From Chryseobacterium indicum (GTDB lineage: Bacteria; Bacteroidota; Bacteroidia; Flavobacteriales; Weeksellaceae), in assembly GCF_021504595.1 (NCBI RefSeq), contig NZ_JACSGT010000001.1, positions 2,108,001 to 2,172,000 on the forward strand: DNA of 64,000 nt, written 5' to 3'. Numbering within the stretch: the stretch's first letter is position 1; each line of letters starts with the position of its first letter. The position numbers and the translations under genes are program-made. The notes below the pieces were generated by a model that did not search any database, was not told the DNA's origin, and saw nothing but the letters and a program-made list of their open reading frames with translations. Positions 35,733 through 54,886 of the stretch are shown here, one piece after another.

Positions 35733-35769
35733 AACCGCCTTGCAGAATTTGTGAGGCGGTTATTTTTTT
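35733..35769 (+). terminator. Terminator of gcvT
   Basis: AACCGCCT (35733-35740) pairs with AGGCGGTT (35754-35761) around a 13-nt loop, then a T run to 35769. The end of this T-run merges with the start of structured repeat copy A. Confidence 0.8.
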
Positions 35770-35863
35770 GGAGCTGTTTCCGGCTATCCACTTTATCTTT
35801 ATTTTTTTGCCGGAGCTTCGCTCCGGCAAAAAAATAAAGGATGCCGTTTCTATCCGGGCTAAA
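35768..35863 (+). repeat. Structured intergenic element, copy A
   Basis: Starts TTGGAGCTGTTTCCGG and ends TATCCGGGCTAAA. AGC (35772-35774) pairs with GCT (35858-35860) and CCGG (35780-35783) with CCGG (35854-35857), with a 5-nt bulge TGTTT on the left. The centre is a perfect 19-bp stem (35797-35815 with 35821-35839) and loop CTTCG. Copies B and C share ends and architecture but not the stem sequence. Confidence 0.8.
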
Positions 35864-35912
35864 TAATTATATCGCAATACATTTTTTCGTACTATTGCAG
35901 AAATTTCTTCTG

Positions 35913-36458
35913 ATGAAAAAAATGGTATTCATTTGTATCGTTGTACTTATTTCAGTTTACATTTTCTATCCAGTCTTTGACAGTGAAGGAATTTCTTATC
36001 TCATTATTTTCTGCTGTTTTGCAACGCTCTGTTTTACCATTGCAAAAATAATGACGGGAAATGATCCTGCAGATTATGAATCAACAGAAAAAGAGATGAA
36101 CAGGCGTTATTCAGAAGACGAAATTTTCAGTTATAACGCAGAAGGATTTTATTTCAAAAAAGAATCAAAGCCAAAACAATACCTAAAATATTCAGATATT
36201 ATAGAAGTGAATTCGTTTTCTATTCGTTTTCTGCAAGATCAAATTCAATCCGGTCTTGAAATAATTACGGTCAATGAAAAATATGAATTTCTCGATCAAT
36301 ATTGTACAGGAATGGAGAAATTCACCGAAAAACTTTCCGAAAACCTTCCTTTTCATCAGAACGATGAATTAAAAATGATGAATAATAACGGTCTAAAAAA
36401 AAGAAACTTATATTTAAGGTCATACGAAAATTGCTTTACAGAATTGCATAACAATTAA
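35913..36458 (+). CDS. Small two-helix membrane protein, unknown function
   Basis: 181-residue protein from the ATG at 35913 (an upstream ATG at 35841 lies inside repeat copy A). It begins with two membrane helices (MVFICIVVLISVYIFYP and ISYLIIFCCFATLCFTI) and continues with a charged cytoplasmic domain; the stretch FYFKKESKPKQYLKYSDIIEVNSFSI resembles the strand pattern of small bacterial PH-like membrane proteins. Function unknown. Gene neighbourhood is small membrane proteins and repeats, an accessory patch. Confidence 0.65.
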   Translation: MKKMVFICIVVLISVYIFYPVFDSEGISYLIIFCCFATLCFTIAKIMTGNDPADYESTEKEMNRRYSEDEIFSYNAEGFYFKKESKPKQYLKYSDIIEVNSFSIRFLQDQIQSGLEIITVNEKYEFLDQYCTGMEKFTEKLSENLPFHQNDELKMMNNNGLKKRNLYLRSYENCFTELHNN

Positions 36459-36551
36459 TTTTTGAAAACGGTTTTGTTTAATACTTCCGTCAGTTGCAGT
36501 TCGCTTCCCGCAAATTGTTTGAGACTTCCTGTAATTGTTGGTATACCGAAA

Positions 36552-36584
36552 AAACCTTACAGGTTTTAAAAACCTGTGAGGTTT
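36552..36584. repeat. 33-bp palindrome, copy 1
   Basis: Near-perfect palindrome with arms AAACCTTACAGGTTTT and AAAACCTGTGAGGTTT around one A; a single T/G mismatch. It is almost identical to copy 2 at 37046-37078. Confidence 0.8.
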
Positions 36585-36615
36585 AAGTCTATTTGCTTAT
36601 AGTTTTAAAGTTTTA

Positions 36616-37038
36616 TTAGAAATTAATTTTCAATAATAAAAACAGAGATGATATTAAAAATGGAATTCCGCTTATTAAAGACAGGTTGTCGACATTAGAC
36701 TTTGAAAAGTCTTTAACCAATACAAAAAATATCAACATCAAAATTATACAAAAAGTATTAATCAGGATTTTCTGTAATTGCCGCCTTTTAATCTTTAAAC
36801 TAATTAAAAGTAATACCTGAAAAATGAGAGAAAAAAATGCTGCAGGTACTAATCTTCCACCATAATGATCTAAGCTAAAAGCATCCGAGTCCGACAAAAT
36901 AAATTGCGGACTTAAGATTTCATAAATGAGAAGAATTCCTAAGCCATGACCGGCTCCGATTAATATAAATGCATTTAAAACAACTGTAGTTATTACCGGA
37001 AAATTTAACTTTTTATCCATAAGTCTACTCTTTTTCAT
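36616..37038 (-). CDS. Small four-helix membrane protein, unknown function
   Basis: Predicted polytopic membrane protein of about 140 residues with four hydrophobic segments (VITTVVLNAFILIGAG, LVPAAFFSLIFQVLLLISL, LINTFCIILMLIFFVLV, LISGIPFLISSLFLLL). The ATG at 37038 (MKKSRLMDKK) or the one at 37020 is the likely start; the only reading starting further upstream would use TTG at 37044. It is bracketed by two 33-bp palindromes. No family is recognised. Confidence 0.6.
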   Translation of the reverse strand: MKKSRLMDKKLNFPVITTVVLNAFILIGAGHGLGILLIYEILSPQFILSDSDAFSLDHYGGRLVPAAFFSLIFQVLLLISLKIKRRQLQKILINTFCIILMLIFFVLVKDFSKSNVDNLSLISGIPFLISSLFLLLKINF

Positions 37039-37045
37039 GCCCAAA

Positions 37046-37078
37046 AAACCTCACAGGTTTTAAAAACCTGTGAGGTTT
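37046..37078. repeat. 33-bp palindrome, copy 2
   Basis: Perfect palindrome: arms AAACCTCACAGGTTTT and AAAACCTGTGAGGTTT with a single central A. It sits 7 bp upstream of the small membrane-protein gene start; copy 1 sits downstream. Confidence 0.85.
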
Positions 37079-37153
37079 GAACCTTAAAAATATTTAAAAT
37101 AATCGTTATAATTACAGAAAAATTAAGGCTTTTCCATTAAATATATCTTACTT

Positions 37154-37504
37154 CTATACTCCAAAAAACTCCCGTAAAGCTTCCACATTCTTCTTTTCAT
37201 TTCCAACAAAAATACTATCATCGGTAATGAAAACGGGACGTTTCAAAAAAGAATAATGATCCAGCAGCAAATCTTTAAAGCCATTTTCCGAAAGAGATTT
37301 TACATCTATTTCTCTTTGCTTGATCTGGGTAGATTTTTTACTGAACAGCGCTTCATAAGACTTTGTTTTTTCATACATTTCTGCAAGTTCTTCTTTGGTA
37401 ACGGGAGCTTTTTTTATTTCACGCAGTTCCCAGTCTTTAAGATCAAACTCAGCCATTATTTTTTTACACGTACCACAGGTATTCAGGTAAAATACTTTTT
37501 TCAT
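37154..37504 (-). CDS. ArsC/Spx-family thioredoxin-like protein
   Basis: Arsenate-reductase-family protein of 116 residues. The N-terminal CxxC motif is FYLNTCGTCKK (C10, C13), then the ArsC helices and the strand RPVFITDDSIFVGN near 87-100 with the conserved Arg-Pro. Members of this family include true arsenate reductases, the Spx regulators and uncharacterised YffB-like proteins; the sequence lacks the ars operon context, so I call only the family. It starts 114 nt upstream of the thioesterase gene, divergent. Confidence 0.85.
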   Translation of the reverse strand: MKKVFYLNTCGTCKKIMAEFDLKDWELREIKKAPVTKEELAEMYEKTKSYEALFSKKSTQIKQREIDVKSLSENGFKDLLLDHYSFLKRPVFITDDSIFVGNEKKNVEALREFFGV

Positions 37505-37617
37505 TGAGAGATTTATTTTGATGGTTAAGAGAAAATTTTAACATTTTCATCTTCAAAAGTAAGATTTAATCCAAAATTTTAAAAATTATAAATACCTTTA
37601 TTCAAATTTTAAAAAGA

Positions 37618-38085
37618 ATGGACAACAAACCGATCACTTTTCAGTTTATTTCAGAACCTTCAGATGTCAACTACGGCGGAAATGTACATGGAGGGAGCGT
37701 CATGAAATGGATTGATCAGGCTGGTTATGCCTGCGCAACAACGTGGAGCGGAAATTACTCAGTAACAGTATATGTTGGCGGAATCCGTTTCTACGAACCC
37801 ATCAAAATCGGGGAAATTGTAAAAGTGGAAGCACAGGTTATTTACACAGGTTCATCGAGTATGCATATTTCCATCAATGTATTTTCCAGAAACCTGAAAC
37901 AACCGAATTTCGATAAAAAAACACACTGCATCATTGTATTTGTTGCCGTAGACGAAAACGGAAAAAAACTTCCCGTTCCCAAATGGATTCCGGAAACAGA
38001 AGAGGAAAAGCAGAAAGAACAGTATGCAATTCGATTAATGGAACTAAGAACTCAGATTGAGGACGAAATGAAGCCTTTTCTGTAG
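37618..38085 (+). CDS. Acyl-CoA thioesterase, YciA/BFIT hotdog family
   Basis: Predicted acyl-CoA hydrolase, 155 residues. The family motif NYGGNVHGGSVMKWIDQAGYACA (near 19-41) holds the conserved Asn, Gly and Asp of the hotdog active site, followed by VYVGGIRFYEPIKIGEIVKVEAQV and the core SMHISINVFSR. Likely acts on acyl-CoAs in the cytoplasm. It lies upstream of the CLC gene but the gap (177 bp) contains a promoter and a fluoride riboswitch, so the two are not one unit. Confidence 0.88.
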   Translation: MDNKPITFQFISEPSDVNYGGNVHGGSVMKWIDQAGYACATTWSGNYSVTVYVGGIRFYEPIKIGEIVKVEAQVIYTGSSSMHISINVFSRNLKQPNFDKKTHCIIVFVAVDENGKKLPVPKWIPETEEEKQKEQYAIRLMELRTQIEDEMKPFL

Positions 38086-38131
38086 AAAATTTCGCAACTC
38101 TGCATACAGAGATTTGAAGGCGGAAATTACA

Positions 38132-38163
38132 TTCTGAAAAATGATTTATAATTTTTATCTTTG
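38132..38163 (+). promoter_or_regulatory. Predicted promoter of the fluoride-riboswitch transcript
   Basis: TTCTG (38132-38136), a 19-bp spacer and TATCTTTG (38156-38163), an exact -7 match. It ends just before the riboswitch, so the riboswitch would be close to the 5' end of the RNA. Confidence 0.6.
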
Positions 38164-38169
38164 CAGTAT

Positions 38170-38228
38170 AAAAGGAAATGGTGTTCTTCCTTACCCAACC
38201 GCTTTTCAAAAGCTGATGACGCCTGATT
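38170..38228 (+). promoter_or_regulatory. Fluoride riboswitch (crcB motif)
   Basis: The aptamer is recognisable by motif and pairing. P1 is AAGGAA with TTCCTT around the ATGGTGTTC loop, then AACC, P2 (GCTTT with AAAGC), then the conserved TGATGACGCC tail. GGTGTT in the first loop pairs with GACGCC in the tail (pseudoknot, two wobbles), as in known fluoride riboswitches. It lies between a consensus promoter and the CLC-F gene, 35 nt before its ATG. Fluoride should raise expression of the exporter. Confidence 0.9.
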
Positions 38229-38262
38229 AAAAGATTATTAACAGTAATTGATCAGGAAAATT

Positions 38263-39567
38263 ATGTCTCAACATCAAAGAAATTTAAACCGTACAATAAA
38301 ATTTCACACTGTTTTTTTCTTCAGGAAATATCCGGCTTTGCCTTATATTCTGAAATGGCTTTTGATTAGTACTCTCATAGGAATTCTAGTGGGAAGTGGT
38401 TCTGCCGGATTTTTAAAATCACTGCAATGGGCAACCGATTTCCGGGAAAATCATCTCTGGCTGATTGCGTTTTTGCCTGTTGGTGGATTTTTAACGGGAC
38501 TTTTGTATCATTATTTCGGAAAAGATGTGGAAGCAGGAAACAATTTGCTTCTGGAAAATATTCAGGAACCGAAGGAAATTATTCCTTTTAAAATGGCACC
38601 TTTTGTTTATTTAGGAACGATGGTGACTCATTTTTTCGGAGGTTCTGCAGGTCGTGAAGGAACGGCGCTTCAAATGGCGGGAGCGATTTCCGATCAACTG
38701 ACAAAAATCCTGAAACTTGATAAAAACGACAGAAAAATTCTGCTGATCTCAGCTATTGCGGCGGGTTTTGGATCGGTTTTCGGAACTCCTTTAGCGGGAG
38801 CGGTTTTCGGACTTGAAGTTTTCCTGATCGGACGAATTCGTTACAATGCTATTTTTCCCGCGTTTACTTCTGCGGTTCTGGCTGATCTTGTCACCAATTT
38901 GTGGAAAGCAAAACATACGCACTATCATATCGAACTTATTCCAAAACTTGAATTTTTACCAATTTTATACAGTGTTTTGGCAGGAATTTTATTTGGAATC
39001 TGCGCTGCAGCTTTCAGCAGAATGATTCATTTTACAGGCTCTATTTTTAAATCTAACATAAAATATCCTCCGTTTCGTCCGGTTGTGGGCGGAATTATTG
39101 TTGCTGTTGCCGTTTTTGCAATGGGAACTACAAGATATATCGGATTGGGAATTCCGACCATTGTAGAATCTTTTGAAAAACAGCTTCCGCTTTATGATTT
39201 TGCCTTCAAAATGATTTTTACCATCGTTACGCTTTCAGCAGGATTTAAAGGCGGTGAAGTTACTCCCCTTTTCTTTATCGGGGCGACTTTAGGAAGTGCT
39301 TTGTCATTATTTATTCCGCTTCCGTTTGGTTTGCTCGCCGGAATGGGATTTGTGGCTGTTTTTGCGGGCGCAACCAATACCCCTCTTGCATGTATGCTTA
39401 TGGGAATTGAATTGTTTGGAGCTGAATGTGGAATCTATGTTGCGATTGCATGCATTGTATCTTATTTATTTTCAGGAAATAACAGTATTTATACAAAACA
39501 AAAAATCGGCGAAGCTAAAAACAGTAGATTTGAGCATCTTGAGGATAAAAATTTCTCGGATTTGTAG
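38263..39567 (+). CDS. CLC-F fluoride/proton antiporter (voltage-gated chloride channel family)
   Basis: CLC-fold exporter of fluoride, expelling it against a proton. The fluoride-type signature replaces the chloride motif GSGIP: residues 92-96 read GNNLL, followed by GREGT at 130-134 with the gating Glu132. A later GGEVTPLFFIGATLG segment matches the GxFxP region. The protein has about 10-12 membrane segments and 434 residues. The ATG at 38263 is chosen; the upstream TTG at 38248 is less likely. A fluoride riboswitch directly upstream supports the substrate assignment. Confidence 0.9.
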   Translation: MSQHQRNLNRTIKFHTVFFFRKYPALPYILKWLLISTLIGILVGSGSAGFLKSLQWATDFRENHLWLIAFLPVGGFLTGLLYHYFGKDVEAGNNLLLENIQEPKEIIPFKMAPFVYLGTMVTHFFGGSAGREGTALQMAGAISDQLTKILKLDKNDRKILLISAIAAGFGSVFGTPLAGAVFGLEVFLIGRIRYNAIFPAFTSAVLADLVTNLWKAKHTHYHIELIPKLEFLPILYSVLAGILFGICAAAFSRMIHFTGSIFKSNIKYPPFRPVVGGIIVAVAVFAMGTTRYIGLGIPTIVESFEKQLPLYDFAFKMIFTIVTLSAGFKGGEVTPLFFIGATLGSALSLFIPLPFGLLAGMGFVAVFAGATNTPLACMLMGIELFGAECGIYVAIACIVSYLFSGNNSIYTKQKIGEAKNSRFEHLEDKNFSDL

Positions 39568-39685
39568 AGTCGTTGATGCTGTTGATTGATAATTATCAGC
39601 TATTAATGCTGTAATTCTATTATAATTAAAAAGCAATCAACCGTTAACTAAAAGCCAACAACCATAATGTTTGATTACAGATTAA

Positions 39686-39928
39686 AAGTTTATCGGATAT
39701 TTTATTCTGGCTATTCTGCTGAACACTTATTTTCTTTTTGTTGGTGAACTTAGTTCTTTCATTACTGTTTTAGCGAAGTCCGGATTAAACTTAACGTTGT
39801 TTTTTATTGGTTCTACTCTTTCTGTTGAAACTTTGAAAACCATCGGTTTTAAGCCTCTTGCTTTTGCTGTTTTTCTATGGATTTTTATCAGTACCGGAAG
39901 TCTGCTGTATATTTTGAATTTTGACTGA
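39686..39928 (+). pseudogene. C-terminal remnant of a YeiH/UPF0324-family transporter
   Basis: The frame from 39686 to the TGA at 39926-39928 encodes about 80 residues: FIGYFILAILLNTYF, then LAKSGLNLTLFFIGSTLSVETLK and a final membrane helix. This matches the C-terminus of UPF0324 (putative sulfate exporter) proteins, whose last part contains a LTLFLIGAGLS-like motif. The frame is blocked upstream by a stop at 39683 and no N-terminal part exists in the 118 bp before it. It is a truncated remnant without a start codon. Confidence 0.65.
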
Positions 39929-39952
39929 TCTGTGTAAGAAATCCTGATATCC

Positions 39953-40067
39953 TAGCCTCGATTGGAGTAATTGTCTGAGCTCATTTTCATTATTTGGGCT
40001 GCGGCAGCTTCGCTGCCGCAGCCCAAATAATGAAAATAGCGAGTGCGGAAAGCGAGATAAAGCTCCA
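39953..40067 (-). repeat. Structured intergenic element, copy B
   Basis: Same element as copy A in the opposite orientation. Read on the minus strand it starts TTGGAGCTTTATCTCG and ends AATCGAGGCTA. AGC and CTCG of the start pair with GCT and CGAG of the end. The centre is a perfect 25-bp stem (39983-40007 with 40013-40037) with a 5-nt loop, CTTCG on the plus strand. Confidence 0.8.
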
Positions 40068-40110
40068 AAATATTTTTTACTTCATAACACACATTTATAA
40101 ATTACAAAAA

Positions 40111-40132
40111 CCTTTTGGAAGGTCCCAAAAGG
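40111..40132 (-). terminator. Terminator of the peptide-precursor gene
   Basis: CCTTTTGG (40111-40118) pairs with CCAAAAGG (40125-40132); on the minus strand the stem is followed by TTTTTG. It is 50 nt past the stop codon of the peptide gene. Confidence 0.65.
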
Positions 40133-40181
40133 CTTTTGCGTATTAAATGTGGAAATGTTTATTTCTAATTGAAATAATTTC

Positions 40182-40370
40182 TTATATAGCGTCGTTGCAG
40201 GTATAAACCTGCGGACAAGCGATGTACTGAACGCAGTAAAACGGTCCTGTTACAGATCCTGAACAGCTGCATCCGCATTTTGAAAGATCCGGTGTTCCGC
40301 TTACGCCTCCTGTAATGTTTTTAAGATCGGCTTTTTTTAATTTTGTTGCTTTTTTTAAAAAATTTTGCAT
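40182..40370 (-). CDS. Double-glycine-leader, Cys-rich peptide precursor (RiPP/bacteriocin-like)
   Basis: 62-residue peptide from the ATG at 40370. The leader MQNFLKKATKLKKADLKNITGG is a basic, amphipathic double-glycine leader (LKNITGG); processing after GG would leave a 40-residue core with six cysteines (KCGCSC, YC, AC, TC) and no charged run. This pattern is like the bacteriocin-like/GG-leader peptides found in flavobacteria. The TAACTTTG -7 element at 40422-40415 (minus) lies downstream of an in-frame ATG at 40427, so the shorter start is preferred. No processing peptidase, ABC transporter or modifying enzyme is nearby. Its activity is unknown. Confidence 0.7.
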   Translation of the reverse strand: MQNFLKKATKLKKADLKNITGGVSGTPDLSKCGCSCSGSVTGPFYCVQYIACPQVYTCNDAI

Positions 40371-40414
40371 TGTGATGTGGTTTTTGATATTAAACGTTAG
40401 TTTTAGTTGCGTGC

Positions 40415-40422
40415 CAAAGTTA
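40415..40422 (-). promoter_or_regulatory. Predicted promoter of the peptide precursor, -7 element
   Basis: Minus-strand TAACTTTG matches TAnnTTTG and lies 44 nt before the ATG at 40370. No convincing -33 element. Confidence 0.45.
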
Positions 40423-40541
40423 AACAAATATTCATTATTCAGAGCATAATTTACTATTATTTTTGATAATTTATTTATTCTCTTAAGCTTATTAAAACTG
40501 ATAACGAAAATTTGAGATTATTATTTCTTAAACAGCAGAAA

Positions 40542-41783
40542 TTATTCTGTAAATTCAAGATCTTTGTCGTGGGTTTCTGAAACCGTTAATGAAGAGTAGA
40601 AAGCCAGTCCGAAAACAATAATTCCCACAATTGCCGCACTTGTAATTACCGAAAAATCTTTCTTAAAAAGATCAAAGGCGAAGATCATTACGGGAACCAA
40701 TCCGCGAACCATGTTCGGAACGGTGGTAGTTGCCGTATTTCTGATATTGGTTCCAAACTGTTCCGCAGCGAGTGTAACGAACATTGCCCAATATCCTGTT
40801 CCCAATCCGAGCCATACACAGAAGATGTAATATTTTGTTTCGGTATCCGTATTTCCGAAAAGCATCAGTACAACTCCGATAATCGTAAAAATCAGCATAT
40901 AGAAAATCGCCATTTTTCTGGATTTTAAAAGGTGGGAAATAAAACCGCTTGCCAGATCTCCGGCAGAAATCCCAACGTAAGCCCACATAATTGCTTTTCC
41001 GGGATTAAGGTCTTTAATTCCGAGTTCCGGTGCAAACTGATTGGCTAAAACAGCCAGAATCCCGATGCAAAACCACGTGGGTAAACCAATTGCAATGCAT
41101 TTTAAATATCGTACTAAACGGTCTTTATTAGTGAAAAACGACAGGAAATTGCCTTTGGAAACCGACTTGTGTTCCATTGTTTTATAAATTCCGGATTCGG
41201 AAACACTGATTCTGAGGAATAAAAGCAGAATTCCCAAAACTCCTCCAATGATGTAGGAAATATTCCATCCTCCCGCCAATTCTACTGTTAACTGGGCTAC
41301 AACGGCTCCCATTAATCCGAAACCGGCAACAACGGATGTTCCGATTGCTCTTAAATTCTTCGGCAGACTTTCAGAAACGAGGGTAATTCCGGCTCCGAGT
41401 TCTCCGGCAAGTCCAATTCCCGCAATAAACCTTAAACCTGCATATTGATACACCAAATGTACTTTTGGGAAGTAGGGTAAAAATCCACATGCAATATTTG
41501 CCAAAGAATAGACTAAAATAGAACCGAACAAAACAGAAAGCCTTCCTTTTTTGTCACCGAAAATTCCCCAGAAAATTCCGCCCAAAAGTAAACCAATCAT
41601 TTGTGCATTTAAAATAAATGTTCCGTCGACATCAGGATTCAATCCTAAAGCTTTTAAACTCGGAATTCTTACGATCCCGAATAAGAGTAAATCATAGATG
41701 TCTACAAAGTAGCCTAACGCAGAAATGATAACGGGAATCGAGAAAATGTACTTCAGTTTCGAAGACGTAGAAAGTTCTTGCAT
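40542..41783 (-). CDS. MFS transporter (sugar/organic-acid symporter type)
   Basis: 12-helix major-facilitator symporter of the inner membrane, 413 residues. The conserved loop between helices 2 and 3 is GDKKGRLSVLFGS (the GxxxDRxGRR type motif with Asp and Arg), and helices 4-5 carry RFIAGIGLAGELGAGITLVSESLPKNLRA, typical of the metabolite:H+ symporter (ProP/NanT/sialate) clade. Substrate not determined. It lies upstream of the rny terminator and apparently has its own transcript. It follows the peptide gene in the same direction but 114 bp upstream, so they are unlikely to be one operon. Confidence 0.85.
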   Translation of the reverse strand: MQELSTSSKLKYIFSIPVIISALGYFVDIYDLLLFGIVRIPSLKALGLNPDVDGTFILNAQMIGLLLGGIFWGIFGDKKGRLSVLFGSILVYSLANIACGFLPYFPKVHLVYQYAGLRFIAGIGLAGELGAGITLVSESLPKNLRAIGTSVVAGFGLMGAVVAQLTVELAGGWNISYIIGGVLGILLLFLRISVSESGIYKTMEHKSVSKGNFLSFFTNKDRLVRYLKCIAIGLPTWFCIGILAVLANQFAPELGIKDLNPGKAIMWAYVGISAGDLASGFISHLLKSRKMAIFYMLIFTIIGVVLMLFGNTDTETKYYIFCVWLGLGTGYWAMFVTLAAEQFGTNIRNTATTTVPNMVRGLVPVMIFAFDLFKKDFSVITSAAIVGIIVFGLAFYSSLTVSETHDKDLEFTE

Positions 41784-41804
41784 TTTGGAGTTTTAAATTT
41801 TGCT

Positions 41805-41841
41805 AAAAATAAAAAACCTTCCAATTTCTTGAAAGGTTTTT
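41805..41841 (-). terminator. Terminator of rny
   Basis: AAAAACCTT (41812-41820) pairs with AAGGTTTTT (41833-41841) around a 12-nt loop; minus-strand T's follow. It is 22 nt past the rny stop codon. Confidence 0.75.
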
Positions 41842-41863
41842 ATGAATTATCTTTTTCTGATTC

Positions 41864-43432
41864 TTATCTCGCAATATTCACAGCTCTCGTTTCTCTGATT
41901 ACTGTTACTTTTACCTGTCCCGGATACGTAAGTTCGTTCTGGATCTTTTCTGAGATGTCGTAAGATAACTGAGAAGCTACTTCATCATTTACTTTTCCGC
42001 TTTCTACCATTACTCTTAACTCTCTACCTGCCTGAATGGCATAAGCTGAAGAGACTCCGTCGAAACTTAATGCTGCAGATTCAAGGTCTTTTAATCTTTG
42101 GATGTAAGATTCTAGCACCTGTCTTCTTGCTCCCGGTCTTGCTCCTGAGATTGCATCGGCAACCTGAATGATCGGAGACAATAGTGAAGTCATTTCCACT
42201 TCGTCGTGGTGTGCTCCGATGGCATTGACAACTTCTGCATTTTCACCGTATTTTTCTGCCCACTGCATACCTAGTAAAGCGTGAGGAAGTTCAGATTCCT
42301 GCTCCGGAACTTTACCGATATCGTGTAAAAGTCCTGCTCTTTTAGCTAATTTTACATTTAAGCCTAATTCAGCCGCCATTGTTGCCGCGATATTCGCCAC
42401 TTCTCTTGAGTGTTGTAAAAGGTTTTGTCCGTAAGAAGAACGGTATTTCATTCTACCTACGATTTTAATTAATTCAGGGTGCAATCCGTGGATTCCTAAA
42501 TCAATAATTGTTCTTTTTCCTACTTCAATAATTTCCTCCTCAATCTGCTTTCTTGTTTTTTCAACAACTTCTTCGATTCTTGCAGGGTGAATTCTTCCGT
42601 CTGTTACCAATCTGTGAAGGGATAATCTTGCGATTTCTCTTCTTACCGGATCAAAGCATGAAAGAAGGATTGCTTCCGGAGTATCATCTACAATAATTTC
42701 CACTCCAGTTACCGCTTCCAAAGCACGGATATTTCTACCTTCTCTACCGATGATTCTTCCTTTTACCTCATCCGATTCGATATTGAAAACGGATACGGAA
42801 TTTTCAATCGCCTGTTCTGTTCCGATTCTCTGAATGGTCTGGATAACGATTTTTCTTGCTTCACTTTTTGCATTAAGCTGCGCTTCTTCCATGATGCTCT
42901 GAACGTGCGCCTGAGCTCTTGTTTTCGCTTCCGCCTTCATGGTTTCTACCAATTCAGCTTTTGCTTCTTCAGCGGTGTAGTTGGCAATTTTTTCTAAAAT
43001 TTCAACTTTTTTCGCTGTTGCAATATCAAGTTCGTGCTGTTTTCTTTCTAAGATTTCTGTTTTTTTAGCATAATCAGCGATTTGCTTATCCAGATCTTTT
43101 TCAAGCTTTCCGGTTTTGCTAAGCTCGTCGTTCAGCTTATGCTCCTTATCCTTGATTCTTTTTTCTACCTCCTGCATTTTCTTTTCTCTTGCCTGAATGT
43201 CTGCATCATGCTGAGATTTCAGTTCAAGGAATTTTTCTTTTGCCTGAAGGTTCTTTTCTTTCTTTATGGATTCAGCTTGTACATTAGCTTTTTCTATAAG
43301 GTTTTCGGCATTTTTCTGTGCATCATCTATAATAAATTTTGCTTTGGTATTCAACGAGCTTTTAGAGAAAAATATCCCTGCAACCGCACCGATTACCAAA
43401 CAAATAACGCCGACTATAATGGCTGTTGTCAT
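41864..43432 (-). CDS. rny: Ribonuclease Y
   Basis: Membrane-anchored endoribonuclease that starts mRNA decay. Domains: N-terminal transmembrane helix ([18 protein letters not shown]), long coiled coil (about 30-200), KH domain with [16 protein letters not shown] (near 225-245), HD domain with [12 protein letters not shown] (catalytic His-Asp near 370) and a C-terminal domain. 522 residues is the normal length. The 6S-type RNA and zapA lie directly upstream on the same strand. Confidence 0.97.
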
Positions 43433-43477
43433 AATCTATATTGAGTTTTAATTGTCTTACTATTCATAAATAAAAAA

Positions 43478-43640
43478 AGCCCACAATAATCCAGAGATTG
43501 AGAGTAAACTCCTAATCAACACGATTTGAACTGATTTCCACTGTCTGTAATCCGGAGAACCGGCACGCCATTCAATGGACATTTGTTCGGTAATTGTTTA
43601 GCGTTGAGTTTACCTTTAATGTGTTAGAATTATTGTAGGC
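43478..43640 (-). ncRNA. ssrS: 6S RNA (6S-Flavo type)
   Basis: The spacer between rny and zapA holds one long, bulged rod-like hairpin. CAATAAT (43484-43490) pairs with ATTATTG (43629-43635), and AGTAAACTC (43503-43511) with GAGTTTACC (about 43606-43614). Unpaired middle and an apical hairpin (CCGG, TTCT loop, CCGG; near 43551-43562) follow, as in 6S RNAs, which fold like an open promoter and bind RNA polymerase. Minus-strand T's at the 3' end (43472-43478) form a terminator. The location between zapA and rny fits 6S-Flavo as I know it. Confidence 0.75.
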
Positions 43641-43660
43641 AGCTTTTTCGGGAAAAAAAT

Positions 43661-47653: not shown

Positions 47654-47673
47654 CAACATTTAATTTAAAATAT

Positions 47674-47711: not shown

Positions 47712-47721
47712 ACACTTAGTT

Positions 47722-48927
47722 ATGCAAAGAAACTTTTTTATCATTGCGGCAGTTTTTATTTTTCTGGAAATTTACATTTACCAGGCAATCAGAACTTTAA
47801 CAGACAATAACTGGATCAAAATAGGCTATTGCATTATTTCTTTAGCGGTTTACGGTTTTTTCGCTTACGAAGTTTCCCACTTCAGCAGAGCCGACCGAAG
47901 CATGATGCGCGCGCAGATTATGATCTCCCTGTTCCTGATTTTTATTCTGCCCAAAGTTTTCATCGTTTTATTTTTATTAATTGATGATATCTTCAGAACC
48001 GGAAGCTATCTTATCGGACTTACGAGACCATCGGAGAACTTTTTCCCGGAAAGAAGAAAGTTTTTAAGCATCATGGGATTAGGTTTAGGAGGTGTTCTTT
48101 CAGCTCTTTTTATCGATGGAATTACATTTGGAAAATACCGCCATAAAGTAAGAAGGGTAAGAATGAATTTTGCGAATCTTCCCAAAAGCTTTAAAGGATA
48201 TAAAATCGTACAGATTTCAGACGTTCACAGTGGAAGTTTTGCGGATCCGGGAAAGCTTCAGCATGCAATTGACTTAATCAATGAACAGAATCCTGATCTG
48301 GTTCTTTTTACCGGAGATATGGTGAATAATGTTGCTGAAGAATTCAAACCATTCATTCCATTATTTTCAAAAATTAAAGCGAAAGACGGGAAATTTGCCG
48401 TTCTTGGAAATCATGATTACGCAGATTATGTAAGCTGGGACTCTCCGGAAGCCAAAAAGAAAAATCTTGATACCTTAATTGATTACGAAAGACAAGCCGG
48501 TTTCGATATGCTTCGGAACGAACACAGAATCATTGAAAAAAACGGCGAAAAAATATACATTTTAGGAGTTGAAAACTGGGGACTAAAACCTTTTCCACAG
48601 TTTGGAAGATTAGATGATGCCTTAAAAGGAATTCCTGAATCTGCTGTTAAAATTTTAATGAGCCACGATCCTACCCATTTTGATTATGTGGTGAAAAAAC
48701 ATCCTGCAAATGTTCATTTAACGCTTTCAGGACATACCCACGGAATGCAGTTTGGTTTGGATCTGAAAAACATAAAATGGTCTCCTGTTCAGTATAAATA
48801 TCCGAAATGGGCAGATTTATATGAAAGCGAAGGAAAAATGCTGTATGTAAACAGAGGTTTCGGAGTTTTGGGATATCCCGGAAGAGTCGGCGTTTTACCG
48901 GAAATTACGCTTTTTGAACTTGCTTAA
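47722..48927 (+). CDS. Membrane-anchored metallophosphoesterase
   Basis: Calcineurin-like phosphoesterase tethered to the membrane. After several N-terminal hydrophobic segments (MQRNFFIIAAVFIFLEIYI; two further segments near 35-55 and 68-90) comes the catalytic domain (about 150-400) with all metal ligands: QISDVHSG, FTGDMVNN, VLGNHDYAD, SHDPTHFD and LSGHTHGMQ. Similar to YkuE-type enzymes, which often act on UDP-lipid A precursors or phospholipids; the substrate is not assigned. The ATG at 47722 is chosen since the preceding terminator occupies the alternative start. Confidence 0.9.
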   Translation: MQRNFFIIAAVFIFLEIYIYQAIRTLTDNNWIKIGYCIISLAVYGFFAYEVSHFSRADRSMMRAQIMISLFLIFILPKVFIVLFLLIDDIFRTGSYLIGLTRPSENFFPERRKFLSIMGLGLGGVLSALFIDGITFGKYRHKVRRVRMNFANLPKSFKGYKIVQISDVHSGSFADPGKLQHAIDLINEQNPDLVLFTGDMVNNVAEEFKPFIPLFSKIKAKDGKFAVLGNHDYADYVSWDSPEAKKKNLDTLIDYERQAGFDMLRNEHRIIEKNGEKIYILGVENWGLKPFPQFGRLDDALKGIPESAVKILMSHDPTHFDYVVKKHPANVHLTLSGHTHGMQFGLDLKNIKWSPVQYKYPKWADLYESEGKMLYVNRGFGVLGYPGRVGVLPEITLFELA

Positions 48928-48952
48928 ATCACAAACACTTATTGCGTTTGAT

Positions 48953-49576
48953 TCAAAGATATTTTTCACTCAGTTTTTCGATAAGTAAATTTGAATCAAT
49001 CGCATTCTCATCAAATCTTGTTAAAGCTTCACGAACCTTAGGATATTCATCTATGAATTCAAGATTTTCGATTTCTTCTAATTTAAAGTCATTCATGATC
49101 TTCCGGAACAATTCTTCATCCACTCCCCAATATTTTATATATTTACTTTCATCAATAAATATTTCGACTAAGTTCTCATCATCATTATAGATTAGCCCAA
49201 AATTTATAAAAGCATCCTGAGTAAGTTCTTTTTTATATTGATTAATAAATTTCAAAATACTGTCTTTTTCCTCATAATTGCCATAATTTAAGTCAAAATC
49301 AATATGCCCAAATAGAACAGCCGCAACTTCGGGTAATGTTTTTGAAAGCGCAACAGTTAAGTTCCAGAGGTTAGAATTATCAATATTTATTTCAGCAAAA
49401 AAATCAAATCCTATCGATTCATGCTCAGAATTATTTTCTTTAAGCTTAAAAGTATATCCCTGAACAATATTTGCAGTTTTACTCTCTTCCCATCTTTTTA
49501 AGATTGAAGGATTGTTGGGAATTTCATCTTCATTTAAAAATCTTATCGTTTTGGGGAATTCCAAAGTTTTTTTCAT
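48953..49576 (-). CDS. Cytoplasmic protein of unknown function
   Basis: 207-residue acidic protein starting at the ATG at 49576 (MKKTLEFPKTIRFL); an earlier frame start at 49633 would overlap the neighbour by 55 nt. It has no signal peptide or membrane helix. Possible secondary structure is alpha/beta: ILKFINQYKKELTQDAFINFGLIY and YIKYWGVDEELFRKIMNDFK. No known motif. It follows the deacetylase-like gene with a 2-nt gap and is probably translated with it. Its size and acidity resemble immunity-type proteins, which is a guess. Confidence 0.6.
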   Translation of the reverse strand: MKKTLEFPKTIRFLNEDEIPNNPSILKRWEESKTANIVQGYTFKLKENNSEHESIGFDFFAEINIDNSNLWNLTVALSKTLPEVAAVLFGHIDFDLNYGNYEEKDSILKFINQYKKELTQDAFINFGLIYNDDENLVEIFIDESKYIKYWGVDEELFRKIMNDFKLEEIENLEFIDEYPKVREALTRFDENAIDSNLLIEKLSEKYL

Positions 49577-49578
49577 AA

Positions 49579-50331
49579 TTAAAAAATATAATCTTTCATA
49601 CGAGAAGTAGCCATTTCTTTCTCGTTGATCCAACTGAGGAGGGCATCTAATTTGTCCTCCATTTTTTTGCCTGAATTCAGCCTTCTGTAAAAGGGAATAT
49701 CAAACGGATATTTCTGGAAATCTGTAAACTGCCATGAATTAAGATAGATCAGAACGAAATCGTCTTTTTTCAGGGTTTCAAAAACCATACTCTGGTAATA
49801 TTCCATCGGAAGCATCTGAAATACAAAATCGTTATACGGAAGCTGACTGTAAGGAGAAATACTTTCCGGAACAATACTCAATCCGTCTTCCTCGTTAATT
49901 TGCGTATCTCTTTTCAGACGTTTAAAAGGAAAAAGAATGTTGGCATTATCTATATTTGAAACGTAATTAAATTCCAGCAGTTTCAAATCCTGCTGTGGAA
50001 GTTTATTGTCTTTCTGACGAATTCCGCGAATCTGTTTTTCTAAAAATTCCTGAGTAAATTTTTTAGCATCGTCAATTTCCTGAAGGGTAGAATTTTTATT
50101 ATAAAAAGCAATTTCATGCCCTTGGAATGAAATTGCTTTTATTAAATTCTGAAGTTTTTGAGCGATCGAAATCTCTACAAAAAAACTTGCTTTAACATCA
50201 TGAATGTCTAAAATTCTAAGTATTGCTTTTGTATTATCTTCTGAAATTTTCAGCCTTTCTTCATCGGAAACAGACTGCTGTTTTTTGCAGTCGGCTTCAA
50301 TATTCAGAATATTAAATGTGAACAATATCAT
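49579..50331 (-). CDS. Degenerate polysaccharide-deacetylase-family protein
   Basis: 250-residue protein with a NodB-like outline: strand MILFTFNILNIEAD, helix NTKAILRILDIHDVKASFFV and GHEIAFYNKNS correspond to the family's TFDDG, SFFV and GHEIGxHSxxH regions. The catalytic Asp pair (D-D-G) is replaced by N-I, and of the metal histidines only the first His (GHE) is kept. It is therefore probably not an active deacetylase. It is followed by the unknown-function gene after 2 nt. Confidence 0.7.
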   Translation of the reverse strand: MILFTFNILNIEADCKKQQSVSDEERLKISEDNTKAILRILDIHDVKASFFVEISIAQKLQNLIKAISFQGHEIAFYNKNSTLQEIDDAKKFTQEFLEKQIRGIRQKDNKLPQQDLKLLEFNYVSNIDNANILFPFKRLKRDTQINEEDGLSIVPESISPYSQLPYNDFVFQMLPMEYYQSMVFETLKKDDFVLIYLNSWQFTDFQKYPFDIPFYRRLNSGKKMEDKLDALLSWINEKEMATSRMKDYIF

Positions 50332-50416
50332 TTAAACTAAATTTTAGATAATTTTTATAATAAATTAAAAATCAGATGTTAAAATAATTCTTATTTAAAT
50401 TAAAACTTGAAGTAAA

Positions 50417-51382
50417 TTAATTTTTATTCAGTTTTACTTTTAAGTTCTTAATCATGTCTTTAGTCATCTCAGAAATCCCGAAATCATAGCTTAATCCCCA
50501 GTCTTTTTTCGCTACGGAATCATCAATTGAAGCCGGCCAGGAATCTGCGATCGCCTGTCTGAAATCCGGTTTATAGTCGATCTCAAATTCCGGAATTTCT
50601 TTCTTAATTTCTTCCGCCAGTTCTTTTGGAGTGAAAGACATTCCGCCCAAATTATATGAAGATCTCACGGTAAGATTTTCTTTCGGAGCATCCATTAATT
50701 TCAGAGTTGCATTGATGGCATCATCCATATACAGCATCGGCATTCCTGTATTCTCGGAAATGAAACTTGTGTATTTTCCTTCTTCAATGGCTTCATAAAA
50801 AATCTCAACAGCGTAGTCTGTTGTTCCTCCACCTGCAGGCGTTTTCCATGAAATTAATCCCGGATAACGGATGCTTCTTACATCCACTCCATATTTGTCA
50901 AAATAATATTCGCACCATTTTTCACCTGCCATTTTAGAAATTCCGTAAACCGTTGTAGGATTTAGAACCACATCCTGCTCTACATTTTCTTTCGGAATTC
51001 CCTTTCCGAAAACAGCGATAGAACTCGGCCAGAAAATTTTTTGGATAAGTCCTTCTTTTGCCATTTCACAAAAATGAAGCAGGGGCTCAAGATTTAGCTT
51101 CCATGCGAAAATGGGCTGCTTTTCTGATGTACCCGACAATAATGAAGCCAAATGGTAAACGGTGGTGATATCGTAATCTTTGATCACCTGTCTAACCAAT
51201 TGTGTATTCGTAACGTCCATCCTTTCGTAATGACCCGCCGCAGTAATTCCCTTTTGCCATCTGTCGAGTCCCGAAGCCACAACATTTTCAGCTCCGTGAA
51301 TTTCAACAAGTCTGTTCGTAAGCTCGGTACCAATTTGCCCTAAAGCACCTGTAATAAGTATTCTTTCCGTGTGGGATTTCAT
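50417..51382 (-). CDS. L-threonine 3-dehydrogenase, SDR type
   Basis: NAD-dependent epimerase-fold enzyme that oxidises L-threonine to 2-amino-3-ketobutyrate. NAD-binding motif ITGALGQIGTEL (near 10-21), active-site PSSIAVFG and YGISKMAGE (Tyr and Lys), and SIRYPGLISWKTPAGGGTTDYAVEIFYEAI, which is diagnostic of the SDR-type threonine dehydrogenases (as in flavobacteria). 321 residues. A minus-strand TACTTTTG at 51416-51409 is a plausible -7 element. Confidence 0.93.
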   Translation of the reverse strand: MKSHTERILITGALGQIGTELTNRLVEIHGAENVVASGLDRWQKGITAAGHYERMDVTNTQLVRQVIKDYDITTVYHLASLLSGTSEKQPIFAWKLNLEPLLHFCEMAKEGLIQKIFWPSSIAVFGKGIPKENVEQDVVLNPTTVYGISKMAGEKWCEYYFDKYGVDVRSIRYPGLISWKTPAGGGTTDYAVEIFYEAIEEGKYTSFISENTGMPMLYMDDAINATLKLMDAPKENLTVRSSYNLGGMSFTPKELAEEIKKEIPEFEIDYKPDFRQAIADSWPASIDDSVAKKDWGLSYDFGISEMTKDMIKNLKVKLNKN

Positions 51383-51472
51383 TTTTAACTTTTATTTGTT
51401 GATCGAAGCAAAAGTAAATATTTTACACCCTATCTTAAAACAAAATCGTAAATTCGAATATAAATTTTGCAA

Positions 51473-53158
51473 ATGAAAAAGATTATCCTTTCACTTATTT
51501 TAATTTCTTCCACAATTTCAGCACAATACACAGATATTACTATTGTGAAGGAGGTAAAAGTTAAAAACAAAGGTGTGGTTGTTTCTGCACATCCACTGGC
51601 AAGTGAAGCCGGAGCAAAAATTCTAAAATCGGGAGGAAATGCTTATGATGCTATTGTTGCCACACAATATGCACTTGCCGTTGTATATCCGCAGGCAGGA
51701 AATATCGGCGGAGGCGGATTTTTGGTTGGTGTAAAAAATAATGGTGAAAAATTTACGCTCGATTATCGTGAGACTGCGCCCAAAAAAGCAAGCCGCGATA
51801 TGTACGTCGATAAAAACGGTAAAGCCAATACGGATCTTTCCCAAAACGGAAGATTAGCAGTCGGAATTCCGGGAAGTGTAGCAGGTTTTTTTGCTACTTT
51901 AAAATACTGTAAACTTCCGATGGAAAAACTAATTCAGCCTGCCATTGATCTTGCTGAAAAAGGCTTTGCGATTACCGAACAGGAAGCTAATTTACTGAAT
52001 AACAATAAGCAGCATTTCCAGAAGCACAATCAGTCTTCCATTGTTTTTGTTAAAGATATTCCCTGGAAAGCCGGAGATCTTTTAGTTCAGAAGGATTTGG
52101 CTGAAACGTTAAAGTTGATTCAGAAACAAGGTTTGAAAGGCTTTTATGAAGGAAAAACAGCGGAACTTCTGGTTTCTGAAATGAAAAAAGGAAACGGAAT
52201 TATTAGTTCGGAAGATCTTAAAAATTATAAAGTTGCCGAAAGAAAAGCACTTGAATTTGATTACAAAGGAAATCAGGTGGTTTCTATGCCTTTGCCTTCG
52301 AGCGGCGGACTTCTTCTTGCGCAAATGCTGAAAATGGCAGCTTACGAAAATCTGGAAAAATATCAGCAAAATTCTACACAGGCTGTTCAGGTGATGGTGG
52401 AAGCCGAAAGAAGAGCATATGCAGACAGAGCGGAATATATGGGCGATCCGGATTTTATTCAGGATAAAACATCTTATCTGATTTCTGACGAATATCTAAA
52501 AAACCGCTGGAAAAGTTTCAGTTTCAGCAAAGCAACTCCGAGTGCTGAAGTGGGAAAAATAACTAAACAACCGAAAGAATCTACAGAAACGACTCATATT
52601 TCCGTTATTGATAAGGATGGAAATGCAGCGGCTGTTACGACTACTTTAAACGGTTTATACGGAAGTAAAGTTGTTGTTTCGGGAGCGGGATTTTTCTTAA
52701 ATAATGAAATGGATGATTTTTCCATAAAACCGGGTGTGCCAAATATGTTTGGAGCGGTTGGCGGAGAGGCGAATTCCATTCAGCCGAATAAAAGGATGCT
52801 TTCCTCGATGACACCAACCATTGTTCTGAAAAACGGAAAACCTTATATGGTAGTGGGAACTCCGGGAGGAACTACTATTCCGACTTCTGTTTATCAGGCT
52901 ATCGTTGATGTTATTGATTTTAAGCAGAATGCAAATATTTCTGTAAATGCTCCGAAATTTCATCATCAGTGGCTTCCTGAAATCGTTGCTTTCGAAAAGA
53001 ATTTTCCTGAAACCACGATTAAAGATCTGGAAAAATTAGGATACAAATCTGAAAAATGGAACCAGATCGGGAGAACAGAAATGATACTGATTGATGACAA
53101 CGGAAATATTCATGCGGTTGCGGATGGTCGTGGTGACGATTCTGTTGCAGTGGAATAA
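51473..53158 (+). CDS. ggt: Gamma-glutamyltransferase
   Basis: Periplasmic self-processing Ntn-hydrolase that cleaves gamma-glutamyl bonds, mainly glutathione. Signal peptide MKKIILSLILISSTISAQ (18 residues, from ATG 51473). The nucleophile is Thr373 or 374 of the TTHISVIDKDG motif, where the precursor splits into two chains; the neighbouring GGGGFLVG, AAVTTTLNGLYG and MTPTIVL, GTPGGTTIPT motifs complete the active site. 561 residues is normal. Monocistronic. The following spacer holds a compound hairpin. Confidence 0.95.
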   Translation: MKKIILSLILISSTISAQYTDITIVKEVKVKNKGVVVSAHPLASEAGAKILKSGGNAYDAIVATQYALAVVYPQAGNIGGGGFLVGVKNNGEKFTLDYRETAPKKASRDMYVDKNGKANTDLSQNGRLAVGIPGSVAGFFATLKYCKLPMEKLIQPAIDLAEKGFAITEQEANLLNNNKQHFQKHNQSSIVFVKDIPWKAGDLLVQKDLAETLKLIQKQGLKGFYEGKTAELLVSEMKKGNGIISSEDLKNYKVAERKALEFDYKGNQVVSMPLPSSGGLLLAQMLKMAAYENLEKYQQNSTQAVQVMVEAERRAYADRAEYMGDPDFIQDKTSYLISDEYLKNRWKSFSFSKATPSAEVGKITKQPKESTETTHISVIDKDGNAAAVTTTLNGLYGSKVVVSGAGFFLNNEMDDFSIKPGVPNMFGAVGGEANSIQPNKRMLSSMTPTIVLKNGKPYMVVGTPGGTTIPTSVYQAIVDVIDFKQNANISVNAPKFHHQWLPEIVAFEKNFPETTIKDLEKLGYKSEKWNQIGRTEMILIDDNGNIHAVADGRGDDSVAVE

Positions 53159-53314
53159 TTGACGTTTTTGTAGTTAATTTTAAAAAACTGACTCAAAAAC
53201 ATTTTAATTAATTGATTATCACATATTTTTATTCATCAGAATGGTAAGAGTGAAATAATCTGGATTTTTAAGACATATGTTTAAGATTTTTCTTTATCAA
53301 AAATTAGAGAACGA

Positions 53315-53386
53315 TTTAAAATAATTTGGTTCGGCTCGGGCTTCGCCCGAGCCGAAACTATTCATGACATTTGTCATTATTTTAAA
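53315..53386. repeat. Compound nested hairpin with CTTCG loop (copy D)
   Basis: TTTAAAATAAT (53315-53325) pairs with ATTATTTTAAA (53376-53386), enclosing TTCGGCTCGGG with CCCGAGCCGAA (53330-53340 and 53346-53356) around CTTCG and a smaller palindrome ATGACATTTGTCAT (53364-53377). The inner stem is of the same GC-rich CTTCG design as copies A-C, but the conserved GGAGCT ends are missing. It may act as a terminator of ggt. Confidence 0.7.
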
Positions 53387-53427
53387 GCAAATTTCACTAA
53401 TTTTCGGTTTTTAAAATCCATATTCTT

Positions 53428-54708
53428 GTGAAAGCAAAAAAGATTTACCACCAGCTTTATTTTCAGGTTATTATTGCGATTGTTGCAGGAATTCTTTTGG
53501 GAAGATTCTATCCGGAACTTGGTGAAAAGATGAAACCTTTGGGTGACGGATTCATCAAACTCGTGAAAATGATTATTGCTCCGGTGATTTTCATTACTCT
53601 CACTTTAGGAATCGCGCACATGACTGATCTGAAGAAAGTAGGCAGAATTGCGGTTAAAGCGATGATCTATTTCCTTACGTTTTCAACATTGGCATTGATT
53701 ATCGGTTTGGTGGTAGGAAATATATTACAGCCGGGTCACGGTCTGAATATTAATCCTTCTACCCTTTCGGGCGATGTTTCACAATATCAGCAGAAAGCTC
53801 ATGAAACCACTTTGACAGGTTTCATTATGAATATTATTCCGGAAACGCTGTTCAGTCCGTTGGTTGGAGATAATATTCTGCAGGTTCTCCTTGTTGCTAT
53901 TTTAATGGGAGTAGCTTTGGTTTTAACGAAAGAAAAGAGCCAGAAAGTAACGGATTTTTTACAGGATCTTTCCACTCCGGTTTTCAAAATTGTGCATATG
54001 CTGATGAAACTGGCGCCGATCGGAGCTTTTGGAGCAATGGCTTTTACCATCGGAAAATATGGACTTCATTCGGTTTTGAATCTGATTTTTTTGGTGGGAA
54101 CCTTTTATATAACTTCTGTATTGTTTGTAGTTTTGGTTTTGGGAGCAGTAGCAAGATATAACGGTTTTAATATTTTTAAACTGATCTATTATCTCAAAGA
54201 GGAACTTTTACTGGTCTTAGGAACGAGTTCTTCAGAATCTGCACTTCCCGGAATAATGGAAAAGCTTGAAAAGGCAGGATGCTCAAGAGCGATTGTGGGT
54301 TTGGTGGTTCCTACGGGATATTCTTTTAATCTTGACGGAACCAATATTTATATGACGCTGGCTTCACTTTTTATTGCCCAGGCTCTGAATATTCATCTGC
54401 CGATTGAGAAACAGATCATTCTTCTTTTGGTTGCCATGCTGAGTTCTAAAGGCGCAGCCGGAGTTACGGGAGCAGGATTTGTGACTTTAGCGGCAACATT
54501 AGCGGTTGTTCCTGAAATTCCGATTGCCGGAATGACGCTGATTTTAGGAATCGATAAGTTTATGAGTGAATGCCGTGCTTTAACCAATGTGATCGGAAAT
54601 TCTGTAGCAACAGTTGTCGTTGCCAACTGGGAAAAACAACTGGATAAAGATCAGCTTCAATATTGTCTGGATCATCCGAATGAAGTGGAAGAAAAGCTGG
54701 AAGTTTAG
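53428..54708 (+). CDS. Dicarboxylate/amino acid:cation symporter (DAACS family)
   Basis: Sodium- or proton-driven importer of dicarboxylates or glutamate/aspartate. GltPh-like topology of eight membrane helices and two re-entrant hairpins. Key motifs: HP1 serine-rich [11 protein letters not shown], the TM7 signature [13 protein letters not shown], and the end motif [21 protein letters not shown] with Asp/Arg substrate ligands upstream in TM8. 426 residues. It starts with GTG at 53428; there is no ATG close upstream in frame. Single gene. Confidence 0.92.
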
Positions 54709-54773
54709 CCTGAGTTGTAACTGATAAGTTGTATACTCTGAAGCCGATTAAGTTTTTGTTATGACTGTCATTT

Positions 54774-54886
54774 TAGCCGCGATTGAGCGGTATGTCTGAG
54801 CTCTTTTCGTTTTTTTCGGCGCGGCGGCTTCGCTGCCGCGCCGAAAAAAACGAAAAAGCGAGTAGCGAAAGCGCGAAACAGCTCCA
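54774..54886 (-). repeat. Structured intergenic element, copy C
   Basis: Same element as copies A and B, minus orientation. Read on the minus strand it starts TTGGAGCTGTTTCGCG and ends AATCGCGGCTA; AGC pairs with GCT and CGCG with CGCG. The centre is a 24-bp stem (54804-54827 with 54833-54856, one G-T pair) with a 5-nt loop, CTTCG on the plus strand. It lies between two convergent genes. Confidence 0.8.

Follow-up and report, generated by a model that had tools for sequence, protein, structure and literature searches.

We analysed a window of 64,000 nt from contig NZ_JACSGT010000001.1 of Chryseobacterium indicum (coordinates below are window positions), which contains three copies of an intergenic element with similar ends and a central palindrome. 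Judged by profile score and alignment, these copies are members or near relatives of the Rfam family RF01705 (Flavo-1). The outer arms of the element are constrained and the centre is not. We read Flavo-1, with a probability of about 0.46, as an intergenic DNA repeat resembling repetitive extragenic palindromes (REPs), in which a folded single-stranded foot is recognised by a protein, rather than as an RNA gene.

The outer foot

The foot is made up of the triplets AGC and GCT, a 4-bp helix (P2) and about nine further positions where G-A oppositions are interspersed with covarying Watson-Crick pairs, and one pairing pattern recurs across copies. Among 105 distinct outer arms, pair 3 of P2 was C-G in 60, G-C in 20, T-A in 13, A-T in 7, T-G in 3 and something else in 2; it was Watson-Crick in 100 of the 105, compared with a mean of 43 and a maximum of 56 in shuffles, which treat the copies as unrelated by descent. 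Inner pairs 3, 7 and 8 were Watson-Crick in 103, 102 and 84 of the same arms (shuffle means 47, 50 and 58). The pattern that retrieved this set left no freedom at AGC/GCT or at inner positions 1, 2 and 4, and the G-A oppositions were counted in a separate set. In 47 copies chosen by the Rfam model in the C. indicum genome and anchored without demands on inner positions (2 of 49 could not be anchored and were left out), inner position 1 was A-G in 39, position 4 G-A in 39 and position 6 A-G in 36. Positions 1, 4 and 6 were unchanged in 74 of 75, 75 of 77 and 76 of 77 comparisons with orthologues found through their flanks. Since homogenisation of the arms would erase G-A pairs, their retention points to selection on the shape of the foot. 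AGC and GCT can pair in all 47 anchored copies (G-T in three cells), but this pairing is beyond the reach of covariation, since the triplet is almost invariant and the anchoring already required AG[CT] and G[CT]T.

Substitution rates also separated the foot from the rest of the element. Between C. indicum and the close relative G307, 77 of 2329 sites differed in the arms compared with 220 of 2925 in the flanks (p 2e-11), and the centre was flank-like, with 89 of 1276 (p 0.56). The corresponding counts for a second relative, G313, were 53 of 2399 (arms), 166 of 3087 (flanks) and 67 of 1327 (centre). The outer arms thus change 2.2-2.4 times more slowly than the flanks between close relatives, in a set of copies whose selection by the Rfam model possibly favoured well-kept arms somewhat. 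The earlier note on this DNA had taken compensatory change as a sign of selection on a folded RNA or single-stranded DNA. For the outer arms this is supported by the covariation across 105 copies and the slower change; the central palindrome is one that arm homogenisation in DNA explains better.

Each of the three window copies has the features previously read in it: AGC opposite GCT, a 5-nt bulge, and a 4-bp helix that is CCGG/CCGG in copy 1, CTCG/CGAG in copy 2 and CGCG/CGCG in copy 3. The copies fold below 200 shuffles both as RNA (z -6.2, -9.3 and -5.1 for copies 1, 2 and 3) and as DNA (z -6.5, -9.4 and -5.6), in minimum-energy structures that are dominated by the palindrome and draw AGC/GCT and the 4-bp helix in none of the three. 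The foot of the window copies rests on covariation between copies and not on energy.

The 5-nt bulge represents only one of two length classes in the family. Among 121 exact matches to the 5' pattern, GCT lay 4-5 nt away from the 3' strand of P2 in 81, 8-10 nt in 4 and 25-44 nt in 26, and the 10 without a P2 or P1 mate were dropped; 18 of the 26 long linkers measured 30 or 31 nt, and two of the 8-10 nt cases (L360 and L366) may be long linkers read short. Should Flavo-1 be part of a REP-like system, copies with linkers of about 30 nt would represent a second architecture within it. The scan patterns were regular expressions that left 63 of 127 loci unmatched and forced the letters AGC, GAT and AGC before P2'. 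A long-range autonomous form was also considered and rejected, the 58 5' halves lacking a 3' pattern match being mostly complete elements with other linkers or letters.

The central palindrome

The inner palindrome drifts at the flank rate, its arms often changing together and its tips sometimes inverted. In the 53 of 117 distinct copies that reached a stem score of 10 (the 64 below it were dropped, and orthologues were counted apart), central pairs were Watson-Crick in 1011 cases, G-T in 6, A-C in none and other in 7, under a scoring that favours perfect stems. Comparison of 18 orthologous loci with G307, segments longer than 260 nt being excluded, gave 13 changes affecting both arms; if the arms were independent at about 7% divergence, fewer than one restoring double change would be expected. 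At one locus (L038) the same pair was T-A, A-T and G-C in three relatives. Over the same 400 kb, the ratio of both-arm to one-arm changes against G307 was 10:7 for Flavo-1 and 3:20 for other intergenic hairpins (p 0.005). Window copy 3 showed seven one-arm changes; its G307 version contains a run of G, possibly an assembly fault.

Template switching between inverted repeats has been described as homogenising arms and inverting spacers (PMC8604942), and Flavo-1 centres resemble its products in arm homogenisation and in the inversion of tips, found at several loci. The central palindrome is better explained by such homogenisation in DNA than by selection on RNA. It would need no selection of its own if polymerase switching template between the arms both homogenised them and flipped the tip. 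Loop inversion was rejected as a peculiarity of Flavo-1: other intergenic hairpins were inverted in 7 of 60 cases (G313) and 2 of 27 (G307), and Flavo-1 in 1 of 9 in each.

Protein-read DNA repeat, RNA gene or passive repeat

Under the DNA-repeat reading the foot would act as the recognition module of a protein that binds a single-stranded hairpin, and, with a linker length of either 4-5 or about 30 nt, the pairing of AGC with GCT might act like the guide and cleavage-site pairing at IS200/IS605 ends or like GTAG in REPs. A more specific version is tentative: a REP-like system not described so far, whose protein reads the G-A studded base of the hairpin, in which AGC/GCT places the action across a linker of two lengths and template switching keeps an otherwise neutral DNA apex palindromic.

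These proposals draw on known systems that Flavo-1 matches in part. Integron attC sites fold as a single strand with a conserved base, a variable terminal structure and a bulge, and end in RYYYAAC and GTTRRRY boxes with the conserved core triplets AAC and GTT. Flavo-1 resembles them in its folding plan (conserved base, variable tip, bulge) but ends in TAGCC and GCTCC, has no such boxes and was not seen in a cassette array. Like REPs and REPINs with their TnpA-REP (RAYT) transposases, Flavo-1 consists of many dispersed intergenic imperfect palindromes. E. coli REPs need conserved stem mismatches and a short 5' foot (PMC8266576), to which the G-A positions and foot of Flavo-1 may be compared. 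However, the REP foot is the tetranucleotide GT[AG]G (PMC6006769), whereas that of Rfam-chosen Flavo-1 copies reads TAGC or CAGC; the Flavo-1 stem is also longer, and no cognate transposase was found beside the copies. In IS608 a cleavage site forms base pairs with a short motif on the 5' side of the hairpin (PMC5934647), and the 5' triplet of Flavo-1 could likewise pair with its 3' triplet across an unpaired linker. The likeness is one of layout alone, as Flavo-1 has no transposase or known cleavage and offers only triplet pairing.

Several results weigh against the DNA-repeat reading. Its single-strand and guide components are analogies. In the 105-arm set the search pattern itself dictated AGC/GCT and inner positions 1, 2 and 4, so that their constancy there is uninformative. 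No double change was seen at P2 or at inner pairs 3, 7 and 8 in the 75-77 orthologous comparisons available per pair; the covariation therefore lies between loci, and independent compensatory events are uncounted. On the Rfam strand G-T exceeded A-C by 16 to 2 at five pairs chosen afterwards and by 27 to 11 in a looser set, an excess that suits RNA too, being expected if that strand folds as RNA or DNA alike. Of the 49 C. indicum copies, 40 had a mapped orthologous segment in G313 and 39 in G307 (for the remainder none turned up in the parts of these genomes that were covered); the element was present in all of these, with no empty site or fresh insertion. A bias of orientation relative to replication in G313 (34 of 48, p 0.006) was lost with other replichore borders (29 of 48, p 0.19). 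When the 809 open reading frames (ORFs) around 120 named copies were clustered, the 25 largest clusters included none that looked mobile; the largest, from 14 loci, looked ABC transporter-like by eye. At the centre, the 18 loci compared with G307 also carried 18 one-arm changes (13 of them in L042, L044 and L175) and 11 one-sided gaps, and all three overlapping comparisons together gave 31 both-arm changes, 46 one-arm changes and 29 one-sided gaps. Against G313, nine Flavo-1 hairpins had 0 both-arm and 2 one-arm changes and other intergenic hairpins 2 and 16. The excess of both-arm change over other hairpins of the same region, by which Flavo-1 differs from template switching at inverted repeats generally, was thus seen against G307 and not against G313.

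The closest competitor is that Flavo-1 is a structured RNA, acting in trans or in cis, which would be transcribed from the TAGCC..GCTCC strand and whose G-A rich internal part would serve for recognition by a protein. It would account for the covariation with G-A oppositions, the excess of G-T over A-C on one strand and the slow change of the arms, and it agrees with the Rfam type of the family, 'Gene; sRNA'. We consider it somewhat unlikely, and the genomic position of the copies is one reason. In the Rfam orientation the right-hand neighbour ends toward the element in 33 of the 47 copies for which both neighbours were called (by ORF length only), that is, the gene at the 3' end runs against the element, and among tandem arrangements the antisense order '--' outnumbered '++' by 22 to 9. 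We saw no conserved promoter in the 40 bases upstream, by inspection of a logo that still contains chance matches (at least L068, L085, L088, L155, L156, L164 and L187) and with no promoter scan run. According to the transcriptome of Flavobacterium psychrophilum (PMC9723704), Flavo-1 hits in transcribed regions occur on both strands and many hits show no transcription, which speaks against a consistently transcribed strand. Copy number varies from 0 to 41 within the genus (lower bounds), and G-T is nearly absent from central stems, as scored in favour of perfect stems. Because no conserved promoter was seen, because the copies are mostly antisense to the 3' gene and because F. psychrophilum hits fall on either strand or are untranscribed, an RNA function of Flavo-1 is doubtful; as between RNA and single-stranded DNA, the evidence leans towards DNA.

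We also considered transcription termination. A run of at least four A lies within 18 nt downstream of 39 of the 49 copies and on the other side of 8. A hairpin of at least 6 bp follows 6 of the 49 copies and precedes 3, so a link to terminators is weak. By eye, the GC hairpin followed by a T run of an intrinsic terminator was found on neither strand of the long palindromes, which are T-rich before and A-rich after the GC stem.

Less probable again, and in our judgement unlikely, is a passive, once mobile repeat without present function whose arms look conserved because copies convert each other. Conversion between copies may indeed occur: one palindrome is exactly common to two loci in two genomes (L038 in G307 and L039 in G313), and window copy 3 has, in G307, a palindrome similar to the one at L034. 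It is also consistent with this alternative that no function was shown in our analysis. However, the eight P2 letters differ between loci, yet at a given locus they stayed the same in 32 of 38 comparisons (G313) and in 33 of 39 (G307), and frequent whole-copy conversion would mix them.

The least probable of the alternatives, that Flavo-1 copies are REPs mobilised by the Bacteroidota REP transposases of subclass 2.6 as their 'atypical' flanking structures, was suggested by the report of such structures beside subclass 2.6 genes and elsewhere in Bacteroidetes genomes (PMC6006769) and by the greater frequency of NF047646 genes (E <= 1e-10) in genomes with Flavo-1 (41 of 56) than without (68 of 142; p 0.001, 198 genomes, uncorrected for genome size or kinship), and it is not supported: Flavo-1 flanked none of 20 NF047646 loci (15 above and 5 below the cut-off, with up to about 1.5 kb of flank), which counts against the DNA-repeat reading as well, only one of 13 further loci had a match, a weak one of 37.4 bits (cut-off 42) that lies outside the inverted repeat flanking the gene itself, a C. 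indicum REP transposase has a different palindrome at both flanks, and G332 and G496 have at least 21 and at least 20 Flavo-1 copies and no NF047646 hit.

Some of these transposase loci are of interest in themselves. The weak match is a Flavo-1-like element at L484 2153-2232 (genome G479). In C. indicum, a REP transposase-like gene scoring 62.6 bits, below the NF047646 cut-off (L113; G000:C3:475190-475612), carries a CCTCATAGGTTT..AAACCTATGAGG palindrome at both flanks, a separate repeat, and a broken REP transposase-like gene (L114; G000:C2:222747-223195) lies between GC-rich inverted repeats of the GGCGCGAGC type. A partner of the IS200-type Y1 class was rejected: none of the PF01797 loci L084-L112 matched the Flavo-1 pattern, and G019 has at least 35 Flavo-1 matches and no PF01797 hit. 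Of the PF01797 loci examined (L051-L054 and L084-L112), 26 have the class 1 YxxNQ motif and the rest another or no readable motif.

If Flavo-1 is the protein-read DNA repeat that we favour, a family filed as a small RNA since 2010 would need re-annotation in many flavobacterial genomes, and RNA-seq hits to it would read differently. The family combines a constraint on shape in one part with arm homogenisation at the flank rate in the adjoining part, so that its copies lend themselves to the study of template switching in bacteria. They also caution against taking symmetrical hairpin change on its own as proof of a selected RNA.

Family membership, distribution and the window copies

The earlier note knew of no described family for the window copies. 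Flavo-1 was in fact published in 2010 (Weinberg et al.), in a table that marks it y, n and n for RNA, cis-regulatory and switch (PMC2864571). Copy 1 passes the RF01705 gathering cut-off (71.6 against 42 bits). Copies 2 and 3 fail it (26.6 and 32.3 bits) yet align over all 76 model positions, and they are related to Flavo-1 as a subfamily other than that of copy 1, without being members by the curated score. The long-palindrome subfamily has the same ends and stem as the Rfam family and falls below its cut-off. We met no function for Flavo-1 in the literature examined, a scope in which subscription journals mostly did not fall. The family itself was thus already known; what is added here is a second linker class, a subfamily that scores under the Rfam cut-off, and evidence both for constraint on the shape of the foot and for a DNA-level origin of the central symmetry.

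The outcomes that the earlier note would have counted as refutation, no covariation beyond chance or no shared ends elsewhere in the genome, did not occur: copies are many, and they covary more than shuffles do. Profile counts score a limited number of candidates and are lower bounds throughout. In the C. indicum genome, 46 places had E below 0.02 among 53 listed (from 150 scored candidates out of 1530). Neither window copy 2 nor window copy 3 is among those 53, and with added copies the genome holds at least 49. Of the 49 examined, 44 overlap no called ORF. The copies fall into at least core, long-palindrome and CAGC types, the last a CAGC..GCTG subfamily with another foot at four C. indicum loci (L024, L025, L030 and L047, the match at L047 being partial).

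Flavo-1 was matched in at least 26 of 39 genomes of relatives at E <= 1e-5; genomes of the same genus had 0 to 41 copies each, and G025, which belongs to another family, had 90. Ten chosen genomes had at least 7 to 125 copies at E <= 1e-4, the 125 again in G025. Class-wide, at least 56 of 198 genomes matched at E <= 1e-6 under stricter filters. Among at least 120 stretches matching the exact 27-base 5' pattern were those of Flavobacterium, Chryseobacterium, Kaistella, Halpernia, Epilithonimonas, Algibacter and others, and a query with copy 1 found no match in plasmid or phage collections. Downstream of gcvT, the 30 best-matching of 98 genomes (C. indicum included) had a complete-looking element in 11 cases, a remnant in 2 and none within 260 bases in 17. 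Four copies have about 6 kb in common at 98-99% identity, and a transposon with Flavo-1 at its end was considered and rejected, since the unit, being repeated and devoid of real ORFs, was taken for a ribosomal RNA (rRNA) operon, with no rRNA search made. Flavo-1 copies, some deleted or with another centre, stand at one end of such rRNA operon-like units at L017, L021, L045 and L050.

On the + strand copy 1 reads TTGGAGCT..GGCTA and copies 2 and 3 read TAGCC..AGCTCC, inverted relative to copy 1. Perfect central stems are present, as reported previously; by our definition they measure 20, 26 and 22 bp and not 19, 25 and 24. The stems had also been called unrelated, a description that fails for the long-stem copies, which have a common pattern such as ATTTT..TTCGGCGGCGGC.

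Table 1. Positions of the three Flavo-1 or Flavo-1-like copies in the window and of their parts.
Feature	Position	Strand	Basis
Flavo-1 copy 1, core subfamily, downstream of gcvT terminator	35768..35861	-	RF01705 71.6 bits at 35773-35864
Copy 1 closing triplet AGC, can pair with GCT 35858-35860	35772..35774		sequence
Copy 1 bulge, 5 nt, short-linker class	35775..35779		sequence and linker-class count
Copy 1 helix P2 CCGG, mate CCGG 35854-35857	35780..35783		sequence and covariation
Copy 1 central palindrome, 20 + 3 + 20 nt	35797..35839		sequence
Flavo-1 copy 2, long-palindrome subfamily	39953..40066	+	RF01705 26.6 bits, E 0.068, under cut-off 42
Copy 2 helix P2 CTCG, mate CGAG 40053-40056	39957..39960		sequence
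Copy 2 central palindrome, 26 + 3 + 26 nt	39983..40037		sequence
Copy 2 bulge, 5 nt (40057-40061), and GCT (40062-40064), possible mate AGC 39954-39956	40057..40064		sequence
Flavo-1 copy 3, long-palindrome subfamily, between two convergent genes	54774..54885	+	RF01705 32.3 bits, E 0.0019, under cut-off 42; ORFs
Copy 3 helix P2 CGCG, mate CGCG 54872-54875	54778..54781		sequence
Copy 3 central palindrome, 22 + 9 + 22 nt	54804..54856		sequence
Copy 3 bulge, 5 nt (54876-54880), and GCT (54881-54883)	54876..54883		sequence

Three other structured elements were noted in the window. The gcvT terminator (about 35735-35765, and L123) has its loop inverted between C. indicum and G313. A match to the 6S-Flavo RNA at 43506-43609 (- strand; 45.3 bits, under the cut-off of 85, E 2e-4) is perhaps the 6S RNA of this genome. 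A fluoride riboswitch (RF01734, 53 bits) was matched at 38165-38232 on the + strand, just 5' of an ORF at 38248-39567 that looks by eye like a ClC-type channel.

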